From: Buttiauxella agrestis
Lineage (GTDB): Bacteria > Pseudomonadota > Gammaproteobacteria > Enterobacterales > Enterobacteriaceae
Direction: 5' to 3'
Length of the DNA stretch: 64,000 bases
Assembly (NCBI RefSeq): GCF_900446255.1
Contig: NZ_UIGI01000001.1
Span: forward strand, 1,824,763-1,888,762
Made by a program: the position numbers and the translations under genes
Notes under the pieces: generated by a model
Databases searched by the model: none
What the model saw: the letters and a program-made list of their open reading frames with translations, nothing else
Told to the model about the DNA's origin: nothing
Shown here: piece by piece, positions 4,504 to 30,933 of the stretch
Layout of the letters: each line of letters starts with the position of its first letter
How positions within the stretch are numbered: position 1 is the stretch's first letter

Positions 4504-4584
4504 TTGTTACCCATAACCCCCAAATAACCCCTCATTTCACCCACTATTCTTGCGATTAAAAACCCTCCAGAAACGGATAATCAT

Positions 4585-4592
4585 GCCGATAA
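4585..4592 (+). promoter_or_regulatory. FliA (sigma 28) -10 element of fliA
   Basis: GCCGATAA matches the sigma-28 -10 consensus exactly, 25 bp before the fliA GTG. The spaced -35 region is only a weak match to TAAAGTTT. The E. coli fliA leader carries the same element, so autoregulated flagellar class 2/3 expression is expected. Confidence 0.65.
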
Positions 4593-4617
4593 CTCAACTA
4601 ACGCAGGGCTGTTTATC

Positions 4618-5337
4618 GTGAATTCACTGTATACCGCTGAAGGTGTGATGGATAAACACTCGCTGTGGCAGCGTTATGTACCGCTGGTGCGTCACGAAGC
4701 ATTGCGCCTGCAGGTACGCCTGCCCGCGAGTGTGGAGCTTGACGACCTGCTACAGGCGGGCGGCATCGGGTTGTTAAACGCAGTGGACCGTTATGATGCC
4801 CTGCAAGGAACGGCATTTACTACCTACGCGGTGCAGCGCATCCGTGGGGCGATGCTTGATGAGTTGCGCAGCCGTGACTGGGTGCCCCGCAGCGTCAGGC
4901 GTAACGCCCGCGGCGTTGCGCAGGCAATTGGTCAACTGGAGCAAGAGCTGGGCCGTAATGCGACGGAAACTGAAGTGGCAGAACGGTTGGATATCCCGCT
5001 CAACGAGTACCGTCAGATGTTGCTCGACACCAACAACAGCCAACTTTTCTCTTATGACGAGTGGCGTGAAGAGCATGGCGATAGTATCGAACTGATTACT
5101 GAAGAGCATCAGCAGGCGAACCCGCTGCAACAATTGTTGGAGGGGAATTTACGCCAACGCGTGATGGACGCCATTGAGGCGCTGCCCGATCGTGAAAAAA
5201 TGGTGCTGACCCTTTATTACCAGGAAGAGCTGAATCTCAAAGAGATCGGCGCGGTACTGGAAGTGGGGGAGTCGCGTGTCAGTCAGTTGCACAGCCAGGC
5301 GATTAAACGCTTACGCACTAAGCTCGGAAAGCTGTAG
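4618..5337 (+). CDS. fliA: Flagellar sigma factor FliA (sigma 28)
   Basis: The product has 239 residues, the same length as E. coli FliA and near-identical to it. It begins at GTG with M-N-S-L-Y-T-A-E-G-V-M-D-K. Region 2 (D-D-L-L-Q-A-G-G-I-G-L-L-N-A, then T-Y-A-V-Q-R-I-R-G-A-M-L-D-E) binds core RNA polymerase and the -10 element. Region 4 at the C-terminus (L-N-L-K-E-I-G-A-V-L-E-V-G-E-S-R-V-S-Q) is the -35-binding helix-turn-helix. It directs transcription of late flagellar and chemotaxis genes and is held by the anti-sigma factor FlgM. In E. coli fliC lies just upstream; here a glycan island occupies that spot. Confidence 0.98.
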   Translation: MNSLYTAEGVMDKHSLWQRYVPLVRHEALRLQVRLPASVELDDLLQAGGIGLLNAVDRYDALQGTAFTTYAVQRIRGAMLDELRSRDWVPRSVRRNARGVAQAIGQLEQELGRNATETEVAERLDIPLNEYRQMLLDTNNSQLFSYDEWREEHGDSIELITEEHQQANPLQQLLEGNLRQRVMDAIEALPDREKMVLTLYYQEELNLKEIGAVLEVGESRVSQLHSQAIKRLRTKLGKL

Positions 5338-5374
5338 GGAGTGCCGCATATTATAAGACGACCGGGATAACATC

Positions 5375-5926
5375 ATGACGGTGCAGCAATTAAAAAAACG
5401 GCCATTAAGCCGCTTCTTAAAAGACTTTAAACACACGCAAACACATTGTGCGCAGTGCGCAAAATTGCTCGACCGCATCACGCTTACGCGCCGCGGTGAA
5501 ATTGTCAGCAAAACGGCAATCGCACAACTGGATACCTTAATTGATGAAAATGGCTGGCAGGTTGAGCGTCAGTCATGGGCGGCATTGTGCCGTTTTTGTG
5601 GTGATTTGTACTGCAAAGAGCAGCAGCACTATTTCGATATCATCGGCTTTAAAGAGTATCTTTTTGACCAGACTGAGATGAGCCACGGCACTATCCGCGA
5701 ATATGTGGTGCGCCTGCGCCGTCTCGGAAATCATCTGGCCTCGCAGAATATTCCCGCTCCTTCCTCCGCTAAAGGTTATTTCGACGACTCACTTGAACCC
5801 TGGTTGCCGACGACCAGCACCAATAACTACCGCATTGCGCTACGCAAGTACGGGCAGTTTCAAACCCTGAACCAAAATACCAGTGCCCAATACCAGGAAA
5901 ATAAATCAACTTCTGATATATATTAA
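5375..5926 (+). CDS. fliZ: Flagellar regulator FliZ
   Basis: The product has 183 residues and matches FliZ end to end (M-T-V-Q-Q-L-K-K-R-P-L-S-R-F-L-K-D-F). FliZ is a DNA-binding protein with a recombinase-like core-binding fold (residues about 80-165). In E. coli it antagonises RpoS-dependent promoters, and in Salmonella it supports FlhDC activity. It lies 38 bp after fliA in the usual fliAZ operon. Cysteine pairs C-A-Q-C and C-R-F-C are present in the N-terminal half. Confidence 0.97.
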   Translation: MTVQQLKKRPLSRFLKDFKHTQTHCAQCAKLLDRITLTRRGEIVSKTAIAQLDTLIDENGWQVERQSWAALCRFCGDLYCKEQQHYFDIIGFKEYLFDQTEMSHGTIREYVVRLRRLGNHLASQNIPAPSSAKGYFDDSLEPWLPTTSTNNYRIALRKYGQFQTLNQNTSAQYQENKSTSDIY

Positions 5927-6011
5927 AATGGCATAAGTTGTAGCGTAGTGTTTTTGATTGATTATATTAAGTCGCTACAATACAACCAAATTATCAATCT
6001 TCGGGGTGACT

Positions 6012-6812
6012 ATGAAATTTGCAATGGTAGGGCGTCAGGCGCTGATGGGCGTACTGGCAGTGGCAATGGTCGCGGGTGCGAGCGTAAAAACTTTTGCGGC
6101 AGAAAATTTACTTAATAAAGTGAAAGAGCGCGGCACGCTGTTGGTTGGGCTGGAAGGAACTTATCCTCCGTTTAGCTTCCAGGGTGATGACGGCAAGCTG
6201 ACCGGCTTTGAAGTGGAATTTGCCGAGCAACTGGCACAACACCTGGGCGTGAAAGCGTCTCTCAAACCAACTAAATGGGATGGCATGCTGGCGTCGCTCG
6301 ATTCCAAACGCATCGACGTGGTGATTAACCAGGTCACCATTTCTGACGAACGTAAGAAAAAATATGATTTCTCCACGCCGTACACCGTTTCGGGTATTCA
6401 GGCGCTGGTGAAAAAGGGCAATGAAGGCAGCATTACCGGGCCGGATTCGCTGAAAGGCAAAAAAGTCGGCGTGGGCCTTGGGACTAACTACGAAGAGTGG
6501 TTGCGTGCCAATGTGCAGGGCGTTGATATCCGCACTTATGATGATGACCCGACTAAATATCAGGATCTGCGCGTAGGCCGTATTGACGCGATTCTGGTTG
6601 ACCGCCTGGCCGCGCTCGATCTGGTCAAGAAAACCAAAGACACTCTGGCCGTAGCGGGTGATGCGTTCTCGCGTCAGGAAGCCGGTGTCGCCGTGCGTAA
6701 AGGCAACGAAGACCTGGTCGAAGCGATTAACAAAGGTATCGCTGAGATGCAGAAAGACGGCTCTTTAGCCAAACTTTCTGAGAAGTGGTTTGGCGCTGAC
6801 GTCACCAAATAA
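6012..6812 (+). CDS. tcyJ: L-cystine ABC transporter periplasmic binding protein TcyJ (FliY)
   Basis: The product has 266 residues. The chosen ATG (6012) lies after a GGGGTG ribosome site and gives the signal peptide M-K-F-A-M-V-G-R-Q-A-L-M-G with cleavage near A-x-A (T-F-A-A). The mature part is a solute-binding protein family 3 domain (G-T-Y-P-P-F-S-F, F-E-V-E-F, D-V-V-I-N-Q-V-T-I). It binds cystine in the periplasm and delivers it to TcyL/TcyN. The gene is followed by a terminator; dcyD and the permease genes lie downstream, as in E. coli. Confidence 0.97.
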   Translation: MKFAMVGRQALMGVLAVAMVAGASVKTFAAENLLNKVKERGTLLVGLEGTYPPFSFQGDDGKLTGFEVEFAEQLAQHLGVKASLKPTKWDGMLASLDSKRIDVVINQVTISDERKKKYDFSTPYTVSGIQALVKKGNEGSITGPDSLKGKKVGVGLGTNYEEWLRANVQGVDIRTYDDDPTKYQDLRVGRIDAILVDRLAALDLVKKTKDTLAVAGDAFSRQEAGVAVRKGNEDLVEAINKGIAEMQKDGSLAKLSEKWFGADVTK

Positions 6813-6831
6813 TTTCTCAAAACCTGAAAAA

Positions 6832-6857
6832 AGGTGCTGATTTCAGCACCTTTTTTA
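6832..6857 (+). terminator. Terminator after tcyJ
   Basis: Inverted repeat AGGTGCTGA / TCAGCACCT flanked by an A-run and a T6 run, 20 bp after the tcyJ stop. The flanking A and T runs make it potentially bidirectional. Confidence 0.85.
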
Positions 6858-6936
6858 TTTGTATTTGCGGGCATTTTGCCCGGCTGGTGCATAATGAATA
6901 AATCTGGATTTTATTCAAAGTGTAATGGAGTTGCTC

Positions 6937-7923
6937 ATGTCACTGCACAATCTGACGCGCTTTCCGCGTCTGGAATTTATCGGCGCACCGACGCCTCTCG
7001 AATATCTGCCGCGTTTTTCCGATTACCTCGGGCGAGAAATTTATATTAAACGTGACGACACCACGCCAATGGCTATGGGCGGTAATAAGCTGCGTAAGCT
7101 TGAGTTCCTGGCGGCTGACGCGTTGCGTGAAGGTGCAGATACCCTGGTTACGGCCGGTGCGATTCAGTCGAACCACGTTCGCCAGACTGCGGCGGTTGCC
7201 GCAAAACTCGGATTGAAATGTGTCGCCCTGCTGGAAAACCCGATTGGTACTAAGGCTGAAAACTACCTCACTAACGGCAACCGTTTGATGCTCGATTTGT
7301 TTGATGCCGAAATCGAAATGTGTGATGCGCTGCATTCGCCAGATAGCCAACTGGAAGAGATCGCCGTGCGCCTTGAAGCGCAGGGTTTTCGCCCGTATGT
7401 GATTCCGGTTGGCGGTTCAAACGCGCTGGGTGCTTTGGGTTATGTTGAAAGCGCCCTGGAAATCGCGCAGCAGTGTGAAGGCGCGGTGAATGTGTCGTCT
7501 GTTGTGGTCGCATCAGGTAGCGCGGGGACGCATGCCGGGTTGGCTGTAGGGCTTGAGCAAGTGATGCCTGATGTTGATTTAATCGGCGTTACCGTTTCAC
7601 GCTCGATTGCCCAACAGTTGCCGAAAGTGGAAGCGTTACAGCATGCCGTTGCGCAGTCTCTGAGTGTCAGCGCAAATAATCCGATCGTGCTTTGGGATGA
7701 TTATTTCGCGCCGGGCTACGGCACGCCTAATGAAGAAGGGCTTGAGGCGATTAAATTACTGGCGCGCCTGGAAGGGATTTTGCTCGATCCGGTTTATACC
7801 GGCAAAGCGATGGCGGGTTTAATTGATGGCGTGGCGCAGAAGCGTTTTAAAGACGACGGCCCGATTATCTTTATTCATACCGGTGGTGCGCCGGCATTGT
7901 TCGCTTACCATCCGCATATTTAG
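6937..7923 (+). CDS. dcyD: D-cysteine desulfhydrase
   Basis: The product has 328 residues, the same length as E. coli DcyD. The start [10 protein letters not shown] at 6937 lies 6 bp after a GGAG ribosome site. It is a PLP-dependent fold-type II enzyme of the ACC deaminase/D-cysteine desulfhydrase family: the PLP lysine is in G-G-N-K-L-R-K-L-E, the phosphate-binding loop is [10 protein letters not shown], and S-N-H-V-R-Q follows the active site. It converts D-cysteine to pyruvate, sulfide and ammonia. Its place between the cystine transporter genes supports a role in handling D-cyst(e)ine taken up by that transporter. Confidence 0.97.
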
Positions 7924-7938
7924 AAAAACAGGGTATCT

Positions 7939-8607
7939 ATGCAAGAAAGTATTCAACTGGTGCTGGATTCGGCACCATTCCTGCTCAAAGGGGCCGTCTT
8001 TACGCTGCAACTCAGCATCGGCGGCATGTTCTTTGGGCTGATTCTCGGCTTTTTATTGGCGCTGATGCGTTTATCGCCATTTTGGCCGTTTTCGTGGTTA
8101 TCACGTTTTTACGTGTCGATTTTCCGCGGTACGCCATTAATCGCCCAGCTATTTATGATTTATTACGGCCTGCCACAGTTTGGTATCGAACTGGATCCCA
8201 TCCCGGCGGCCATGATTGGTCTGTCTCTGAATACGGCGGCTTATGCCTCTGAAACCTTGCGTGCGGCGATTTCGTCAATCGAGAAGGGGCAGTGGGAAGC
8301 GGCGGCGAGTATCGGTATGACACCCTGGCAAACGCTGCGCCGGGCGATTTTACCGCAGGCGGCGCGGGTGGCATTGCCTCCGCTGAGCAATAGCTTTATT
8401 AGCCTGGTGAAAGATACTTCGCTGGCAGCGACCATTCAGGTTCCTGAACTGTTCCGCCAGGCGCAACTGATCACTTCGCGTACGCTTGAGGTATTTACCA
8501 TGTATCTCGCGGCTTCATTGATTTACTGGGTGATGGCAACGGTGCTTTCCACGTTGCAAAACTACTTTGAAAATCAACTTAATCGCCAGGACAGGGATCC
8601 AAAATGA
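7939..8607 (+). CDS. tcyL: L-cystine ABC transporter permease TcyL (YecS)
   Basis: The product has 222 residues, an inner-membrane polar amino-acid permease with about five hydrophobic segments. The EAA loop that docks on the ATPase is visible (E-A-A-S-I-G-M-T-P-W-Q-T). It forms the membrane channel with TcyN. It starts 15 bp after dcyD and overlaps tcyN by 4 bp, so the three genes are translationally linked. Confidence 0.97.
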   Translation: MQESIQLVLDSAPFLLKGAVFTLQLSIGGMFFGLILGFLLALMRLSPFWPFSWLSRFYVSIFRGTPLIAQLFMIYYGLPQFGIELDPIPAAMIGLSLNTAAYASETLRAAISSIEKGQWEAAASIGMTPWQTLRRAILPQAARVALPPLSNSFISLVKDTSLAATIQVPELFRQAQLITSRTLEVFTMYLAASLIYWVMATVLSTLQNYFENQLNRQDRDPK

Positions 8608-9356
8608 GCGCCATCGACGTAAAACAACTGGTCAAAAAATTCCACGGGCAGACGGTGCTGCACGGGATCGATCTGGAAGTGAAAGCCGGCGAAGTGGTGG
8701 CGATTATCGGGCCGAGCGGTTCGGGTAAAACCACACTGCTGCGCTGTATTAACTTGCTGGAACAGCCGGAGTCCGGAACTATTAAAGTCGGCGAGATTAC
8801 GATTGATGCCGCGCAATCGCTGAGTAAACAGAAAAATCGCGTGCGCGAATTACGCCAGCATGTCGGTTTCGTGTTCCAGAGTTTTAATCTTTTCCCTCAT
8901 CGGACGGTGATTGAAAATATCATTGAAGGGCCGGTGATTGTAAAAGGTGAGCCGAAAGAAGAGGCGATTGCGCGAGCGCGTGAATTGTTGGCAAAAGTCG
9001 GGTTGAGCGGTAAAGAAACCAGCTACCCGCGTCGTCTCTCTGGCGGTCAACAGCAGCGAGTGGCGATTGCTCGTGCGCTGGCGATGCGTCCGGAAGTGAT
9101 TCTGTTTGACGAACCGACTTCTGCGCTTGATCCAGAGCTGGTGGGCGAAGTGTTAAGTACCATTCGCCAACTGGCCGAAGAAAAACGCACGATGGTGATT
9201 GTGACCCACGAAATGAGCTTTGCGCGTGATGTGGCAGACCGCGCAATTTTTATGGATCAAGGGCGCATCGTTGAGCAAGGGCCAGCCCGCGAACTGTTTG
9301 CAAATCCTAAGCAGCCGCGCACTCAGCAATTTCTCGAAAAATTCCTCACGCAGTAA
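8604..9356 (+). CDS. tcyN: L-cystine ABC transporter ATPase TcyN (YecC)
   Basis: The product has 250 residues. Walker A is G-P-S-G-S-G-K-T-T (36-44), the ABC signature is L-S-G-G-Q-Q-Q-R, Walker B is V-I-L-F-D-E-P-T, and the switch histidine is in I-V-T-H-E-M. It powers cystine import through TcyL. It overlaps tcyL by 4 bp (ATGA) and is followed by a hairpin terminator. Confidence 0.98.
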   Translation: MSAIDVKQLVKKFHGQTVLHGIDLEVKAGEVVAIIGPSGSGKTTLLRCINLLEQPESGTIKVGEITIDAAQSLSKQKNRVRELRQHVGFVFQSFNLFPHRTVIENIIEGPVIVKGEPKEEAIARARELLAKVGLSGKETSYPRRLSGGQQQRVAIARALAMRPEVILFDEPTSALDPELVGEVLSTIRQLAEEKRTMVIVTHEMSFARDVADRAIFMDQGRIVEQGPARELFANPKQPRTQQFLEKFLTQ

Positions 9357-14164: not shown

Positions 14165-14240
<76 letters not shown>

Positions 14241-14289
14241 AATTTATGTAGCAGAAATTCTGTTACAGCCTGCAAAGGTAAAAAGTTTT

Positions 14290-14363
14290 GGCGCGTTAGC
14301 AAAGCGGTTATGTAGCGGATTGCAAATCCGTCTAGTCCGGTTCGACTCCGGAACGCGCCTCCA
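14290..14363 (+). tRNA. cysT: tRNA-Cys (GCA)
   Basis: A 74-nt cloverleaf with encoded CCA. Acceptor GGCGCGT pairs with ACGCGCC, the anticodon arm GGATTGCAAATCC carries GCA, and the T-loop is GGTTCGACTCC. Confidence 0.98.
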
Positions 14364-14375
14364 CTTTCTTCCCGA

Positions 14376-14462
14376 GCCCGGGTGGTGAAATCGGTAGACA
14401 CAAGGGATTTAAAATCCCTCGGCGTTCGCGCTGTGCGGGTTCAAGTCCCGCCCCGGGCACCA
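14376..14462 (+). tRNA. leuZ: tRNA-Leu (TAA)
   Basis: An 87-nt class II tRNA with a long variable arm, encoded CCA and anticodon TAA (GGGATTTAAAATCCC arm). The part from 14408 onward is the phage attachment repeat, so the 3-prime half of this functional copy was supplied by the integrated phage. Confidence 0.98.
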
Positions 14463-26789: not shown

Positions 26790-27134
26790 ATGCGTGATAT
26801 ATATGAAGTATTAGACCGTTGGGGCGCTTGGGCTGCTTGTGATAGCAGTGGGGTTGACTGGCAACCTATTGCAGCAGGTTTTAAAGGCCTGCTCCCACAC
26901 GGTAAGAAATCACGCCCTCAGTGTTGTGACGATGAAGGGATCATGATTGATGGCTGTGTTGCTCGACTGAGGAAGTATAAGCCAGATGAATATGAGCTTG
27001 TGATTGCTCACTTTGTTATCGGTATTTCGCTGCGCGCGATAGCGAAAAGGCGGAAGTGTTCGGATGGGACGATTAGAAAGGATTTGCAGACGGCTCTTGG
27101 TTTCATTATCGGGGTTATTAGTACAATGAATTGA
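26790..27134 (+). CDS. Phage late antitermination protein Q
   Basis: The product has 114 residues and fits the short antiterminator Q family (PF06530-like): R-D-I-Y-E-V-L-D-R-W-G-A-W, then Y-E-L-V-I-A-H-F-V-I-G-I-S-L-R-A-I-A-K-R-R-K-C-S-D-G-T-I-R. A helix-turn-helix lies near the C-terminus. Q modifies RNA polymerase near the late promoter so that the lysis and structural genes are read. Here a minus-strand cargo operon of almost 1.9 kb lies directly downstream, between Q and the late genes. Confidence 0.88.
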   Translation: MRDIYEVLDRWGAWAACDSSGVDWQPIAAGFKGLLPHGKKSRPQCCDDEGIMIDGCVARLRKYKPDEYELVIAHFVIGISLRAIAKRRKCSDGTIRKDLQTALGFIIGVISTMN

Positions 27135-27161: not shown

Positions 27162-27623
27162 TCAGAAGCTTTTTATATATTTGTTTTTTATTTTTTCATT
27201 TATATTTTGGATTTCATGTAATGTTGTACCAACTTTGCTAATTTCATATTTTGCATCGTTTGTACAAGACTGCCGTAGTTCAGCAATAAAACCGGTATCT
27301 TTGGTTTTTTTACTATCTAATATTTCTATTCTCTCACAAATAAATTCGACATGCCTGACAGATGAAGTAAAGATATAATAAGAAACACGCTTATCTTTTT
27401 CATTGTCTTCTAAAAGTTCGAGCATTTCATTATAAATGAAATCTAATTTATAAAATAACTCATCAATTAATCTGTTGGTTTCTAATTTCTTTAAGTTTTT
27501 AGAGTTGTTAGCTCTTGCAAATAAAGCAGTGACAATCCATCCTATGATGGTTAATCCAATACCTACTATTGCTATTATAGTAGCCGGCATGGTCCATAGA
27601 CTTTGTGGAACAGCTTGATTCAT
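27162..27623 (-). CDS. Small membrane-anchored protein of the GHKL/STAS operon
   Basis: The product has 153 residues from the ATG at 27623, 7 bp after GGAGAA. One strong transmembrane helix is at about residues 13-35 (T-I-I-A-I-V-G-I-G-L-T-I-I-G-W-I-V). A charged, helical cytoplasmic part follows, with coiled-coil-like heptads (K-N-L-K-K-L-E-T-N-R-L-I-D-E-L). I do not recognise the family. It is the last gene of a three-gene, AT-rich operon whose first two products are a GHKL ATPase and a STAS-like protein; the STAS stop lies 2 bp before this start. It may be the membrane effector or sensor of the set. Confidence 0.65.
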   Translation of the reverse strand: MNQAVPQSLWTMPATIIAIVGIGLTIIGWIVTALFARANNSKNLKKLETNRLIDELFYKLDFIYNEMLELLEDNEKDKRVSYYIFTSSVRHVEFICERIEILDSKKTKDTGFIAELRQSCTNDAKYEISKVGTTLHEIQNINEKIKNKYIKSF

Positions 27624-27625
27624 TA

Positions 27626-27940
27626 TCAAATTCTCCTTAGAGCGTCATTGATATATGAAACAACCTCAGCGGTTAAGGAAGGATCTTTGCTTTTGAGATT
27701 TTTCTTAAGAGATTCAATCTTGTTACGACTTATGCCTTTTCGGACCAATCCACCAAATGCTTCCTCAAGGAAGGAGGATCCATACCCAAACACACCATCA
27801 AAGTCCACGCAGACCAGATCGTTGTCCATTATTGCAGGTATCAAGAATGAGTCGCGGAATTTTTCACCACTATTTTCACCAAGAGATTCATACCTAGGTC
27901 CTGGATACTTAGAGAAGTCTTTGATGTATATGGTTTTCAT
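27626..27940 (-). CDS. STAS-like DUF4325 protein
   Basis: The product has 104 residues from the ATG at 27940, which follows AGAGGA and overlaps the ATPase stop (ATGA). It resembles DUF4325 proteins: the V-C-V-D-F-D-G-V-F-G-Y-G-S-S-F-L-E-E-A-F-G-G-L-V segment has the beta-strand/D-F-x-G pattern and the S-S-F-x-x-E-A-F-G helix start of STAS-like domains. In anti-anti-sigma factors such as SpoIIAA the equivalent position carries the phosphorylated serine. Pairing with a GHKL ATPase in one operon suggests partner-switching. Confidence 0.7.
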   Translation of the reverse strand: MKTIYIKDFSKYPGPRYESLGENSGEKFRDSFLIPAIMDNDLVCVDFDGVFGYGSSFLEEAFGGLVRKGISRNKIESLKKNLKSKDPSLTAEVVSYINDALRRI

Positions 27941-29037
27941 AATGTTCCTCTTTCTGTAGGAAGTGGAATGCTCCACTCAACAATTGTACCGTTGATAGAT
28001 TTTTTTGCATCCCACAACTTTTCAGGCTCTGATCTCTTATGCTCAGTATATCTATAATTTCCATTGTTGGAAATAATCCGTAACTGAGCATTCTTAAAGT
28101 TTTCGATGATAGATTGTAAATCTGTACCACCTTTTCCTCTATAACCTAATTTGGTTCTGGTTCTTTTAACTTGAAGTGATGCTTTTATATGCTCTGAGTC
28201 TAACTCAATTGGTTTTCCCATTAATTCTATCAATTTAGATAAAACTTTCTCTCCTTGAGTTAATTTTAAGGTTCTAGGGATGCCAACACCAAGATCACAA
28301 ATTAGCAGTACCAACTTATTATTCATAATGGCAGCAAAGCACCACCATTTATTTTTATTGGTTTTTTTCTGATTGTCATAGAGATCATCCCTGTATGCAT
28401 GTTCAACAGAGTTTGACATCGCTTCAATTAAGGGTCGATAAAGATCTGTGTATTCTTCACCCATTTTCGCAGCTACAGTTTCCAGCAACTTACCTGCCAT
28501 TTCAGAGTCAACTAATTCCCCTCGAATGACCTCCCAACATTTGACGGATGGATTTTCTTTCATTTCTCTACCTTTAACACCGAAGGCAGAATAAATTCCG
28601 ATTCTGTTTAATACGCTGTCAACAACATGATGTTCACCTTTCTTGGTAGTTTTGAAAGGAGGTCTGGTTACAGTGTATTTCACAAGTGGATAATTACTTC
28701 TAAGATTTTCGAGTTTAGCAAGTAAATATAATCCTGCGGCAGCTGAGATATAAATGGTGTTTCTAAAGCAAATGAATAATCCGTGGGATTTAGAATGTTC
28801 TTGCTCCGCTCTTCGCTCTATAGTCTCAATGAAATTTAATACGTTCTCATGGTGATTTGGGTTGTAAATATCTAATATTGTCGGCGCAACAATTTTATTT
28901 GTAGATGATTTTTTCTTTTTACCATTTCGTTTCGTCTTGCTGCCTTTAATGTTTTTGTTACTAACAATAGAACGCAAAAATTTCTTTTTTATTAATCGTT
29001 TTATTGCTTTATTAAACAATTTTTCGATTTTTTTCAC
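27937..29037 (-). CDS. GHKL (HATPase_c-like) ATP-binding protein
   Basis: The product has 366 residues from a GTG at 29037 with AAGGA 10 bp upstream. The N-terminal 45 residues are extremely Lys-rich. Residues 90-150 have alternating beta/alpha character and may be a degenerate STAS-like region. The C-terminal half has the GHKL boxes: N-box L-I-E-A-M-S-N-S-V-E-H-A-Y, G1 D-L-G-V-G-I-P, and G2-like G-Y-R-G-K-G-G-T-D-L. No His-phosphotransfer (DHp) domain is present, so it resembles anti-sigma-factor kinases (SpoIIAB/RsbW type) or MORC/Hsp90-type ATPases rather than a sensor kinase. It heads the minus-strand operon. Confidence 0.7.
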   Translation of the reverse strand: MKKIEKLFNKAIKRLIKKKFLRSIVSNKNIKGSKTKRNGKKKKSSTNKIVAPTILDIYNPNHHENVLNFIETIERRAEQEHSKSHGLFICFRNTIYISAAAGLYLLAKLENLRSNYPLVKYTVTRPPFKTTKKGEHHVVDSVLNRIGIYSAFGVKGREMKENPSVKCWEVIRGELVDSEMAGKLLETVAAKMGEEYTDLYRPLIEAMSNSVEHAYRDDLYDNQKKTNKNKWWCFAAIMNNKLVLLICDLGVGIPRTLKLTQGEKVLSKLIELMGKPIELDSEHIKASLQVKRTRTKLGYRGKGGTDLQSIIENFKNAQLRIISNNGNYRYTEHKRSEPEKLWDAKKSINGTIVEWSIPLPTERGTL

Positions 29038-29069
29038 GCTTTTCAGTTCCTTATGCTGTAGTCAACGCT

Positions 29070-29098
29070 ATCTTACAAAATTGCTAACGCGTACGCAA
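29070..29098 (-). promoter_or_regulatory. Promoter of the GHKL/STAS operon
   Basis: On the minus strand TTGCGT (29098-29093), a 17-bp spacer, then TAAGAT (29075-29070), 33 bp before the GTG start. The -35 lies in a TTGC..GCAA inverted repeat (29081-29098) that shares one half-site with the CI operators, but it is not a full operator. Confidence 0.5.
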
Positions 29099-29155
29099 AA
29101 ACTATCGTAATGTGATAAGACATGTCACTAAGACACCGCACTTATTTAAGTCACA

Positions 29156-29865: not shown

Positions 29866-30933
29866 ATGGCTTTTACTGTAAATAAATCCAGTATTACGCT
29901 GGTGAATGCCGACTCACTCGAGTACATCAAAATCCTTCCTGATAACAGCATCGATCTTATATGTACCGATCCGCCTTACTTTAAGGTGAAGCCTCATGGT
30001 TGGGATAACCAGTGGCGGGGCGATGAAGACTATCTGCTCTGGCTTGATAGCTACCTAGTTGAGTTCTGCCGCGTACTCAAGCCAGCCGGTTCGTTGTATA
30101 TGTTTAGCGGTCACCGGCTGGCTGCTGACATTGAACTACTCGTTCGCAACCGCTTTAACATCCTCAACCACATCATCTGGGCAAAACCCAGTGGCCGATG
30201 GAATGGGTGTCATAAAGAGGATCTGCGCAGCTATTTCCCGGCGACCGAGCGCGTGCTGTTTGCTGAGCATTACCCTGGCCCTTATCGCGGGAAGAGTGAC
30301 GGTTACAGCGCGAGTTGCGATGACCTGCGTCGCCATATTATGACGCCGCTTATCGATTATTTTCGCAATGCGCGCGCCGAACTCGGGGTAACGGCTCAAC
30401 AAATAGCTGAAGTCACGGGCAAGAAAAATATGGTGTCGCATTGGTTCGGTGCCAGCCAGTGGCAGTTGCCCAGCGAAGTAGACTATGCAAAGTTGCAGAA
30501 GCTGTTTGATGATATTGCCTGGGAAAGACGGCAACAGTCCGGCCTGGGTATAAACCGTCAGCAACTCAGCGAGAACTACCAGGCATTAAACCGGCATTAT
30601 CTCGATCTGGCTGACGAGTTTAAACGACTGCGTCGATCGTTCACTGTAAGTGCAGCTGTGCCGTATACGGACGTATGGTGCTATAAGCCGGTGCAATTCT
30701 ATCCGGGTAAACACCCATGTGAGAAACCTGCCGATATGTTGCGTGACATCATCAATGCCAGCAGCAGGCCAGGTGATGTGGTGGCAGATTTCTTTATGGG
30801 GTCTGGTTCAACAATCAAAGCTGCATTGGCACTAGGACGCGGGGCGATTGGTGTTGAACTGGAGTTGAAACGATTTGAACAAACTAGAATGGAAATTTGT
30901 ACAAAAATGTCTCGTGTAGACATATTTAAATGA
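29866..30933 (+). CDS. DNA methyltransferase (N4-cytosine/N6-adenine, DPPY type)
   Basis: The product has 355 residues. The catalytic motif D-P-P-Y is at 35-38 and the SAM-binding motif near the C-terminus (V-A-D-F-F-M-G-S-G-S-T, about 307-317), so the order is catalytic motif first, SAM motif last (beta class). A central insertion (about 150-245) contains an XRE-like stretch (L-G-V-T-A-Q-Q-I-A-E-V-T-G-K-K-N-M-V-S-H-W) that may give sequence specificity. It is an orphan methyltransferase with no restriction partner next to it, probably protecting phage DNA. It is the second methyltransferase of this prophage. Confidence 0.9.
   Translation: MAFTVNKSSITLVNADSLEYIKILPDNSIDLICTDPPYFKVKPHGWDNQWRGDEDYLLWLDSYLVEFCRVLKPAGSLYMFSGHRLAADIELLVRNRFNILNHIIWAKPSGRWNGCHKEDLRSYFPATERVLFAEHYPGPYRGKSDGYSASCDDLRRHIMTPLIDYFRNARAELGVTAQQIAEVTGKKNMVSHWFGASQWQLPSEVDYAKLQKLFDDIAWERRQQSGLGINRQQLSENYQALNRHYLDLADEFKRLRRSFTVSAAVPYTDVWCYKPVQFYPGKHPCEKPADMLRDIINASSRPGDVVADFFMGSGSTIKAALALGRGAIGVELELKRFEQTRMEICTKMSRVDIFK

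Follow-up and report, generated by a model that had tools for sequence, protein, structure and literature searches.

Introduction

In VapKSC, a three-gene system described in 2026 (PMC13373217), a kinase, VapK, phosphorylates a STAS antitoxin, VapS, and thereby frees a PIN RNase, VapC. According to that paper, the system gives Escherichia coli about 2 logs of protection against one phage; this protection is abolished by changing VapC D28, VapS S48, or VapK F54; and VapS is a proven antitoxin. Activation of VapK by single-stranded DNA (ssDNA) is presented there as a prediction without a test. The paper also covers CapK, an ssDNA-activated kinase that phosphorylates CapS. Across the literature searched, VapKSC appeared solely in this paper.

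Here, we examine K, S, and X, a trio of overlapping genes on the minus strand of a 64,000-nucleotide stretch of Buttiauxella agrestis DNA (contig NZ_UIGI01000001.1, positions 1,824,763 to 1,888,762; hereafter, the window). Their nearest relative is VapKSC, and we put a probability of roughly 0.55 on K-S-X being a sister of that system with a membrane effector, i.e., a three-part, kinase-triggered toxin-antitoxin or abortive-infection cassette. The genes are as follows.

27937..29037, minus strand: gene K, GTG start, 366 amino acids (aa); basic N-terminal tail, probable STAS-like domain, predicted GHKL (SpoIIAB/RsbW-type) kinase domain
27626..27940, minus strand: gene S, ATG start, 104 aa; DUF4325 STAS-like protein with candidate phosphoacceptors S55/S56
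27162..27629, minus strand: gene X, TTG start (alternative ATG at 27623), 155 aa; N-terminal membrane helix and helical cytosolic domain, candidate effector

K and S overlap by 4 nt (ATGA), as do S and X if the TTG start of X is used. A first-pass annotation, made from the letters and open reading frames of this DNA, had described an AT-rich, overlapping trio, and both points are borne out: the two 1-kb bins that cover the cassette have a GC content of 35 to 36%, versus 46 to 55% in the flanking bins.

Conservation of the K-S-X gene order

One scan of species genomes with S returned 250 relatives, and two scans of viral contigs returned 139 and 176; from each, the best 80 were analyzed. The resulting survey comprises 240 loci (L018 to L177 and L185 to L264), 186 of them distinct by S DNA; other loci that were fetched stand outside this count. 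Of the 186 distinct loci, 176 have K as the gene immediately upstream of S, and 165 have an X-family gene immediately downstream, an arrangement that is more than chance and that answers the co-occurrence test set by the first-pass annotation. Among the 21 distinct loci lacking an X-family match, 17 have a third frame with a hydrophobic N-terminal segment (Kyte-Doolittle [KD] value of ≥1.27), and the remaining 4 (L073, L078, L167, and L197) have something else downstream. Fusions of K with S, S with X, or K with X were absent from all 240 loci. A further scan with a divergent S returned merely two loci (L183 and L184), whose S was identical to that of the query.

By record title, the genome hosts include Proteobacteria, Bacteroidota, Clostridia, Deferribacteraceae, Omnitrophota, and Sumerlaeia, with many metagenome bins. 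The kinase-STAS pairing had been placed in the Firmicutes at first; it is not confined there, most loci being proteobacterial or in viral contigs. Within the genus of Pseudomonas viridiflava (L019), an S match was present in 17 of 298 genomes, including the center genome and one weak match (E = 2.8e-4).

The kinase-like protein K

Searched alone, K matched Pfam HATPase_c_2 at merely E = 0.13, and a single-sequence search of the PDB gave no match. Across 106 aligned K proteins, the residues of the GHKL boxes (E205, N209, D248, G250, G301, G303, G350, and T351) were invariant. The modeled C-terminal domain (residues 169 to 361 in the structure lists) found its best fold matches in the serine kinases SpoIIAB and RsbW, and K fits this fold class in its GHKL domain, N-box Glu and Asn, and G1 and G2 boxes. 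Alignment and model thus identify the C-terminal part as a predicted RsbW/SpoIIAB-type kinase domain, in keeping with the original description of a GHKL protein without DHp. Profile searches of the PDB with K and S were informative for the first five and first two rows, respectively, beyond which chance matches (aminotransferase and ferritin) appeared.

VapK carries an N-terminal STAS domain, and the N-terminal part of K probably includes a STAS-like one. Its model has alternating strand and helix elements, and Pfam STAS matched 3 and STAS_2 matched 2 of the 106 members; the profile search returned no STAS. Preceding this region is a long, basic tail with a median net charge of +14 (at least +5 in 102 of 106 members). 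Pfam matched no helix-turn-helix (HTH) in K, and the modeled tail consists merely of one short and one long helix. A set in an Aeromonas record (L182:2965-4249) comprises a short K (the GHKL part, 175 aa), S, and a membrane X, flanked by two copies of a repeated stretch (the same translated frames, 1203 to 2702 and 4753 to 6252); it is possibly a truncated or minimal version.

As the closest folds of K are anti-sigma kinases, we considered a classical partner switch whose target would be a sigma factor of the host or of a phage. SpoIIAB/SpoIIAA and RsbW/RsbV differ from the present set in that those are single-domain anti-sigma factors, whereas this cassette has no sigma factor and has a membrane protein as its constant third member. 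Upstream neighbors also argue against such a switch: in the Pfam matches listed for 141 upstream genes (25 of 146 families), sigma-70 domains occurred in 2 members, as the full housekeeping domain set. We regard this explanation as very improbable.

The STAS-like protein S

The second product had been called STAS-like, and S matches Pfam DUF4325 (E = 4.2e-15) and no further Pfam domain. Position 56 is Ser in all 186 distinct loci, and at position 55, 174 of the 186 have Ser or Thr. Neither serine was fixed by the search pattern, whose fixed letters lie in the LEE.FGGL stretch that comes after them. A single-sequence PDB search with S returned two unrelated chains at E > 1. S aligns to positions 343 to 439 of the 441 positions of PHROG 5816, which suggests a natural fusion of S with another domain.

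The membrane protein X

The hydrophobic segment of X spans residues 18 to 36 (KD, 2.51). In the AlphaFold2 model (pLDDT of 90), helices cover residues 13 to 74, 80 to 104, 113 to 123, and 130 to 153; the initial part of the long first helix is the membrane segment, and the remainder of the protein forms a helical bundle. This agrees with the single-helix membrane protein first proposed. X had no convincing Pfam match and none to PIN, and PIN was matched by 0 of 70 X family members at E = 0.01.

By sequence comparison, X is a defined family, more than a vague membrane protein. Across the 240 loci, a profile derived from 70 X proteins matched 217 open frames, a number equal to that of the third genes it matched. 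Because this profile was partly built from proteins that it scored, the fair figure is a held-out test, in which profiles trained on four-fifths of 143 clusters recognized 134 of 143 clusters and 0 of 143 reversed sequences. At distant loci (L058, L070, L086, L087, L093, and L095), the third protein is ~200 aa long, has two hydrophobic segments, and is missed by the profile; the membrane anchor persists beyond sequence similarity.

The fold of X bears on what it might do. Since X is membrane anchored and has a soluble helical domain, it could be a sensor or anchor rather than a toxin, tethering S or K-S to the inner membrane and signaling envelope disturbance by an adsorbing phage, with superinfection exclusion or altered binding of another target by K as the output. 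Several weak fold neighbors of X are chemoreceptor and kinase sensor domains, but these are common four-helix bundles, and the best Foldseek match in the PDB was at E = 0.24. The order of kinase, STAS gene, and third gene is moreover that of VapKSC, whose third gene is a toxin, and we consider a sensor or anchor role unlikely. A profile search of the PDB with X gave coiled-coil and helical noise (best E = 0.0026). The one good viral match in the fold search was an unnamed 159-residue protein (TM score, 0.71; E = 5.8e-4), as long as the X of Marinobacter phage AS1, with which it may be identical.

Comparison with VapKSC and CapKS

K-S-X resembles VapKSC in several respects. The gene order is kinase, STAS gene, and third gene, with K first in the operon; K is a predicted kinase with a GHKL domain and without HTH; the STAS protein is short, with a Ser/Thr at the start of a helix; and both sets lie on mobile elements. 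A human fecal phage contig carries a VapKSC-type locus (L181:1402-3192) encoding a GHKL/STAS_2 protein, a DUF4325 protein, and a PIN protein, so that S and the VapS-like protein of this locus both belong to Pfam DUF4325. In a profile comparison, the GHKL part of K aligned with the L181 kinase (probability, 96%; E = 3.4e-9). This locus came from a phage collection. With the published VapS fragment as the query, one search found 0 viral contigs, and one plasmid locus was found, where the annotation shows the DUF4325 gene as no more than a short fragment. A DNA search of E. coli genomes with L181 gave no match. By reading, the L181 contig also bears a resolvase-like gene.

The two systems differ in their third gene, which here encodes a membrane protein without a PIN match rather than the VapC PIN RNase, and in the long basic tail of K, a charge measured on the K family alone, without VapK. 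Because the PIN toxin, a defining part, is absent, K-S-X would work like VapKSC but is not VapKSC. With CapKS, the likeness is a GHKL kinase with an adjacent STAS partner gene; CapK has an HTH, whereas none was matched in K.

PADLOC v2.0.0 (2023) returned 0 families for K, S, and X at E values up to 1. The earlier suggestion that the set is no named defense system therefore stands for the set as a whole, and not for the kinase-STAS pair, which is known from CapKS and VapKSC. Two papers in the literature searched mention DUF4325, and no description of a membrane-effector variant was found; this search did not extend to bioRxiv, subscription papers, or the supplements of PMC13373217, a paper whose datasets may include the variant. 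Lost co-conservation, boxes departing from GHKL, and identity to a named system, any of which the first-pass annotation had named as counting against it, were all absent from our results.

A proposed mechanism and its weighing

The architecture of the cassette is well supported: alignments and models show an operon with an RsbW/SpoIIAB-type kinase domain, an invariant serine, a membrane anchor, and family-wide linkage. Given the same layout as VapKSC and the Pfam family that S shares with L181, the best reading is a kinase-released membrane effector. At rest, S, as a STAS antitoxin, would be bound to the cytosolic helical domain of X and keep X inactive. K would be activated by a stress signal, the likeliest being ssDNA that arises from phage replication or DNA damage, and would then phosphorylate S with ATP at one or both of the adjacent serines S55 and S56. 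S would thereupon release X, and X would assemble in, or perturb, the inner membrane and stop growth before the invading phage matures. The phosphorylation, the ssDNA trigger, and the antitoxin role of S are proposed by analogy with VapKSC and CapKS; toxicity of X, which has no direct precedent, and a defense function of the set are presumed.

Several results weigh against this mechanism. X has no recognizable toxin fold, its fold matches being generic helical bundles. The K family has no conserved aromatic at the guessed equivalent of the ssDNA residue of VapK/CapK, which leaves the ssDNA trigger as an analogy. The two best PDB matches of the S profile are both weak, namely, 3t6o, a STAS protein (E = 0.044), and 9z7o, the VapS of Escherichia (E = 0.15); unrelated chains begin at E = 0.22, and 9z7o is not significant alone. 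The hhalign comparison of S with the L181 antitoxin was likewise weak (probability, 6.5%; E = 0.0057). VapS Ser48 (numbered by our own arithmetic as 66 minus an 18-residue tag) aligned to S55, and VapS has a proline in place of the invariant S56. Either serine may therefore be the phosphoacceptor, and the acceptor may be shifted by one residue relative to VapS. Finally, the survey of best-scoring relatives is biased toward S proteins resembling the query.

Mobility of the cassette and its neighbors

The window includes enterobacterial chromosome: positions 4507 to 8998 correspond to the fliA, fliZ, dcyD, tcyJ, and tcyL region of E. coli (77.8%). Three tRNA genes (14165 to 14462) are followed by integrase-like and repressor-like genes, names assigned by reading translations. 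The K-S-X trio is flanked by a Q-like gene (26790 to 27134) and a methylase-like gene (29866 to 30933), the latter called a DNA methylase by reading of the gene rather than by a database. The trio also comes after a gene annotated as "antiterminator Q family protein" in two E. coli strains, p10A and PSUO2. In Escherichia phage LLS, HNH is followed by Q, methylase, and pinholin, and different small genes occupy the cassette site; on both sides of the cassette, the window matches the HNH and methylase DNA of this phage. The matching flanks and differing interior suggest that K-S-X is replaceable prophage cargo.

Among 5,426 complete E. coli genomes, 8 had a place covering 72 to 77% of the 2.6-kb query, in prophages. 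In the isolated Marinobacter phage AS1, the set adjoins a Cro/CI gene. Plasmid carriers were found in Vibrio, Acinetobacter, Novosphingobium, and Leptospira, along with a prophage-like Pasteurella plasmid; the annotation of the Novosphingobium plasmid has no third gene, and on one Acinetobacter plasmid (L016) the annotated K is just 163 aa and comes after an IS element. Occurring on plasmids and in an isolated phage, K-S-X is a mobile cassette, as the first reading of cargo next to Q had it. Since the set is found beside CI/Cro-type genes and on plasmids as well, we rejected a role in the timing of lysis.

Some neighbors are themselves toxin-antitoxin genes: PemK/MazF and MazE-like genes in L011, RelE/ParE and NadS in L012 and L016, and HepT-like and nucleotidyltransferase genes near the set in L014. 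Together with carriage on plasmids and in prophages, these would fit an addiction module of mobile elements, with identical biochemistry and with retention of the prophage or plasmid, rather than defense, as the benefit. VapKSC, the sister system, protects against a phage (PMC13373217). Among 141 upstream and 139 downstream neighbors from 80 genome loci, PADLOC models for type I restriction-modification, Thoeris, MADS, IetA, and Mza had matches at E ≤ 1e-10 (among the matches listed, 25 of 113 families), the first four beside some loci and arguing against retention as the benefit. We judge the addiction explanation quite unlikely. For these neighbors, we claim the presence of defense models and not their enrichment. 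Pfam matches among upstream neighbors included six S24 peptidases and four integrases (among the matches listed, 25 of 146 families).

A promoter-like block before K

The first-pass annotation had also given the trio its own promoter, and one further feature bears on this.

29068..29151, minus strand: conserved promoter-like block before K, ~70 bp; core TTTTTGCGTACGCGTTAG at 29084-29101

A candidate reading has a -35 element, TTGCGT (29098 to 29093), 17 nt, and a -10 element, TAAGAT (29075 to 29070). The claim holds insofar as the block is conserved in four of five aligned sequences (L103 lacks it) and recurs in many phage contigs; a promoter consensus scan was uninformative (10 sites versus 7.9 expected). 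Since its 8-base center precedes 4 of 122 K genes, the block belongs to enterobacterial phages rather than to the K family. Perfect palindromes of ≥10 bp were no commoner before K than 540 to 700 bp upstream (21 versus 27 of 122), and we therefore claim no family-wide operator.

The 18-base core occurs once in the window and in at least 120 stretches of viral contigs, with at least 122 matches in at least 92 distinct contexts; a complete open frame follows it in at least 105 of these at least 122 matches. Among the matches listed, a rough word-sharing rule sorted the frames into 46 clusters, several of which are visibly related, so that the true families are fewer. On the other side of the core, in the commonest clusters, lie genes read as endolysin, methylase, or holin genes. 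We scanned 44 cluster representatives, leaving out K's own and a 72-aa frame. Candidate defense models matched included PDC-M53A (four) and PDC-S42 (three), and two AAA ATPases fell near OLD, Gabija, and Septu models (among the matches listed, 25 of 170 families). The block may be a promoter, so far putative, that serves different genes in one cargo slot next to the lysis genes; phages are reported to have defense genes as cargo both in known hot spots and in others (PMC11364771). Thirteen bases of the core had no text occurrence in the literature searched.

The commonest Pfam family among the cargo representatives (drawn from L269 to L388) was NA37, a 37-kD nucleoid-associated protein (8 of 44). 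Three frames behind the same block (L297:1935-2519, L320:2138-2698, and L381:205-768) encode proteins of 186 to 194 aa with an N-terminal hydrophobic stretch and a charged remainder, resembling X in layout by eye.

Conservation before K, and the partial resemblance of K and S to CapK and CapS, would also fit transcriptional control in the manner of CapKS, with S as a repressor and K derepressing the promoter. CapS, however, has a promoter-repressing winged helix, and S (DUF4325 only) is too short for one; the block also precedes unrelated cargo and is rare before K genes, and it is thus not specific to S. Such control is highly improbable.

Implications

Taken together with CapKS and VapKSC, these results raise the tentative idea, to which we give slightly less than even odds, that kinase-STAS pairs act generally as switches that are triggered by stress and whose output can be exchanged: a promoter repressor in CapKS, an RNase in VapKSC, and a membrane effector here. 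The membrane branch would then be an undescribed abortive-infection system across phages, plasmids, and chromosomes of several phyla. The recent publication of VapKSC reduces the surprise; the cassette nature, its spread, and the unexplained X family are grounds for a bench test. If the general-switch reading is true, the X proteins would form a new toxin family, released by a kinase and acting at the inner membrane, and one kinase-STAS trigger in bacteria and prophages would fire outputs of very different chemistry. A common, unnamed DUF4325 operon would become an immune system that can be tested and that has a membrane protein as its effector, and Pfam DUF4325, a "STAS-like domain of unknown function," would gain a role as a phospho-switched antitoxin.
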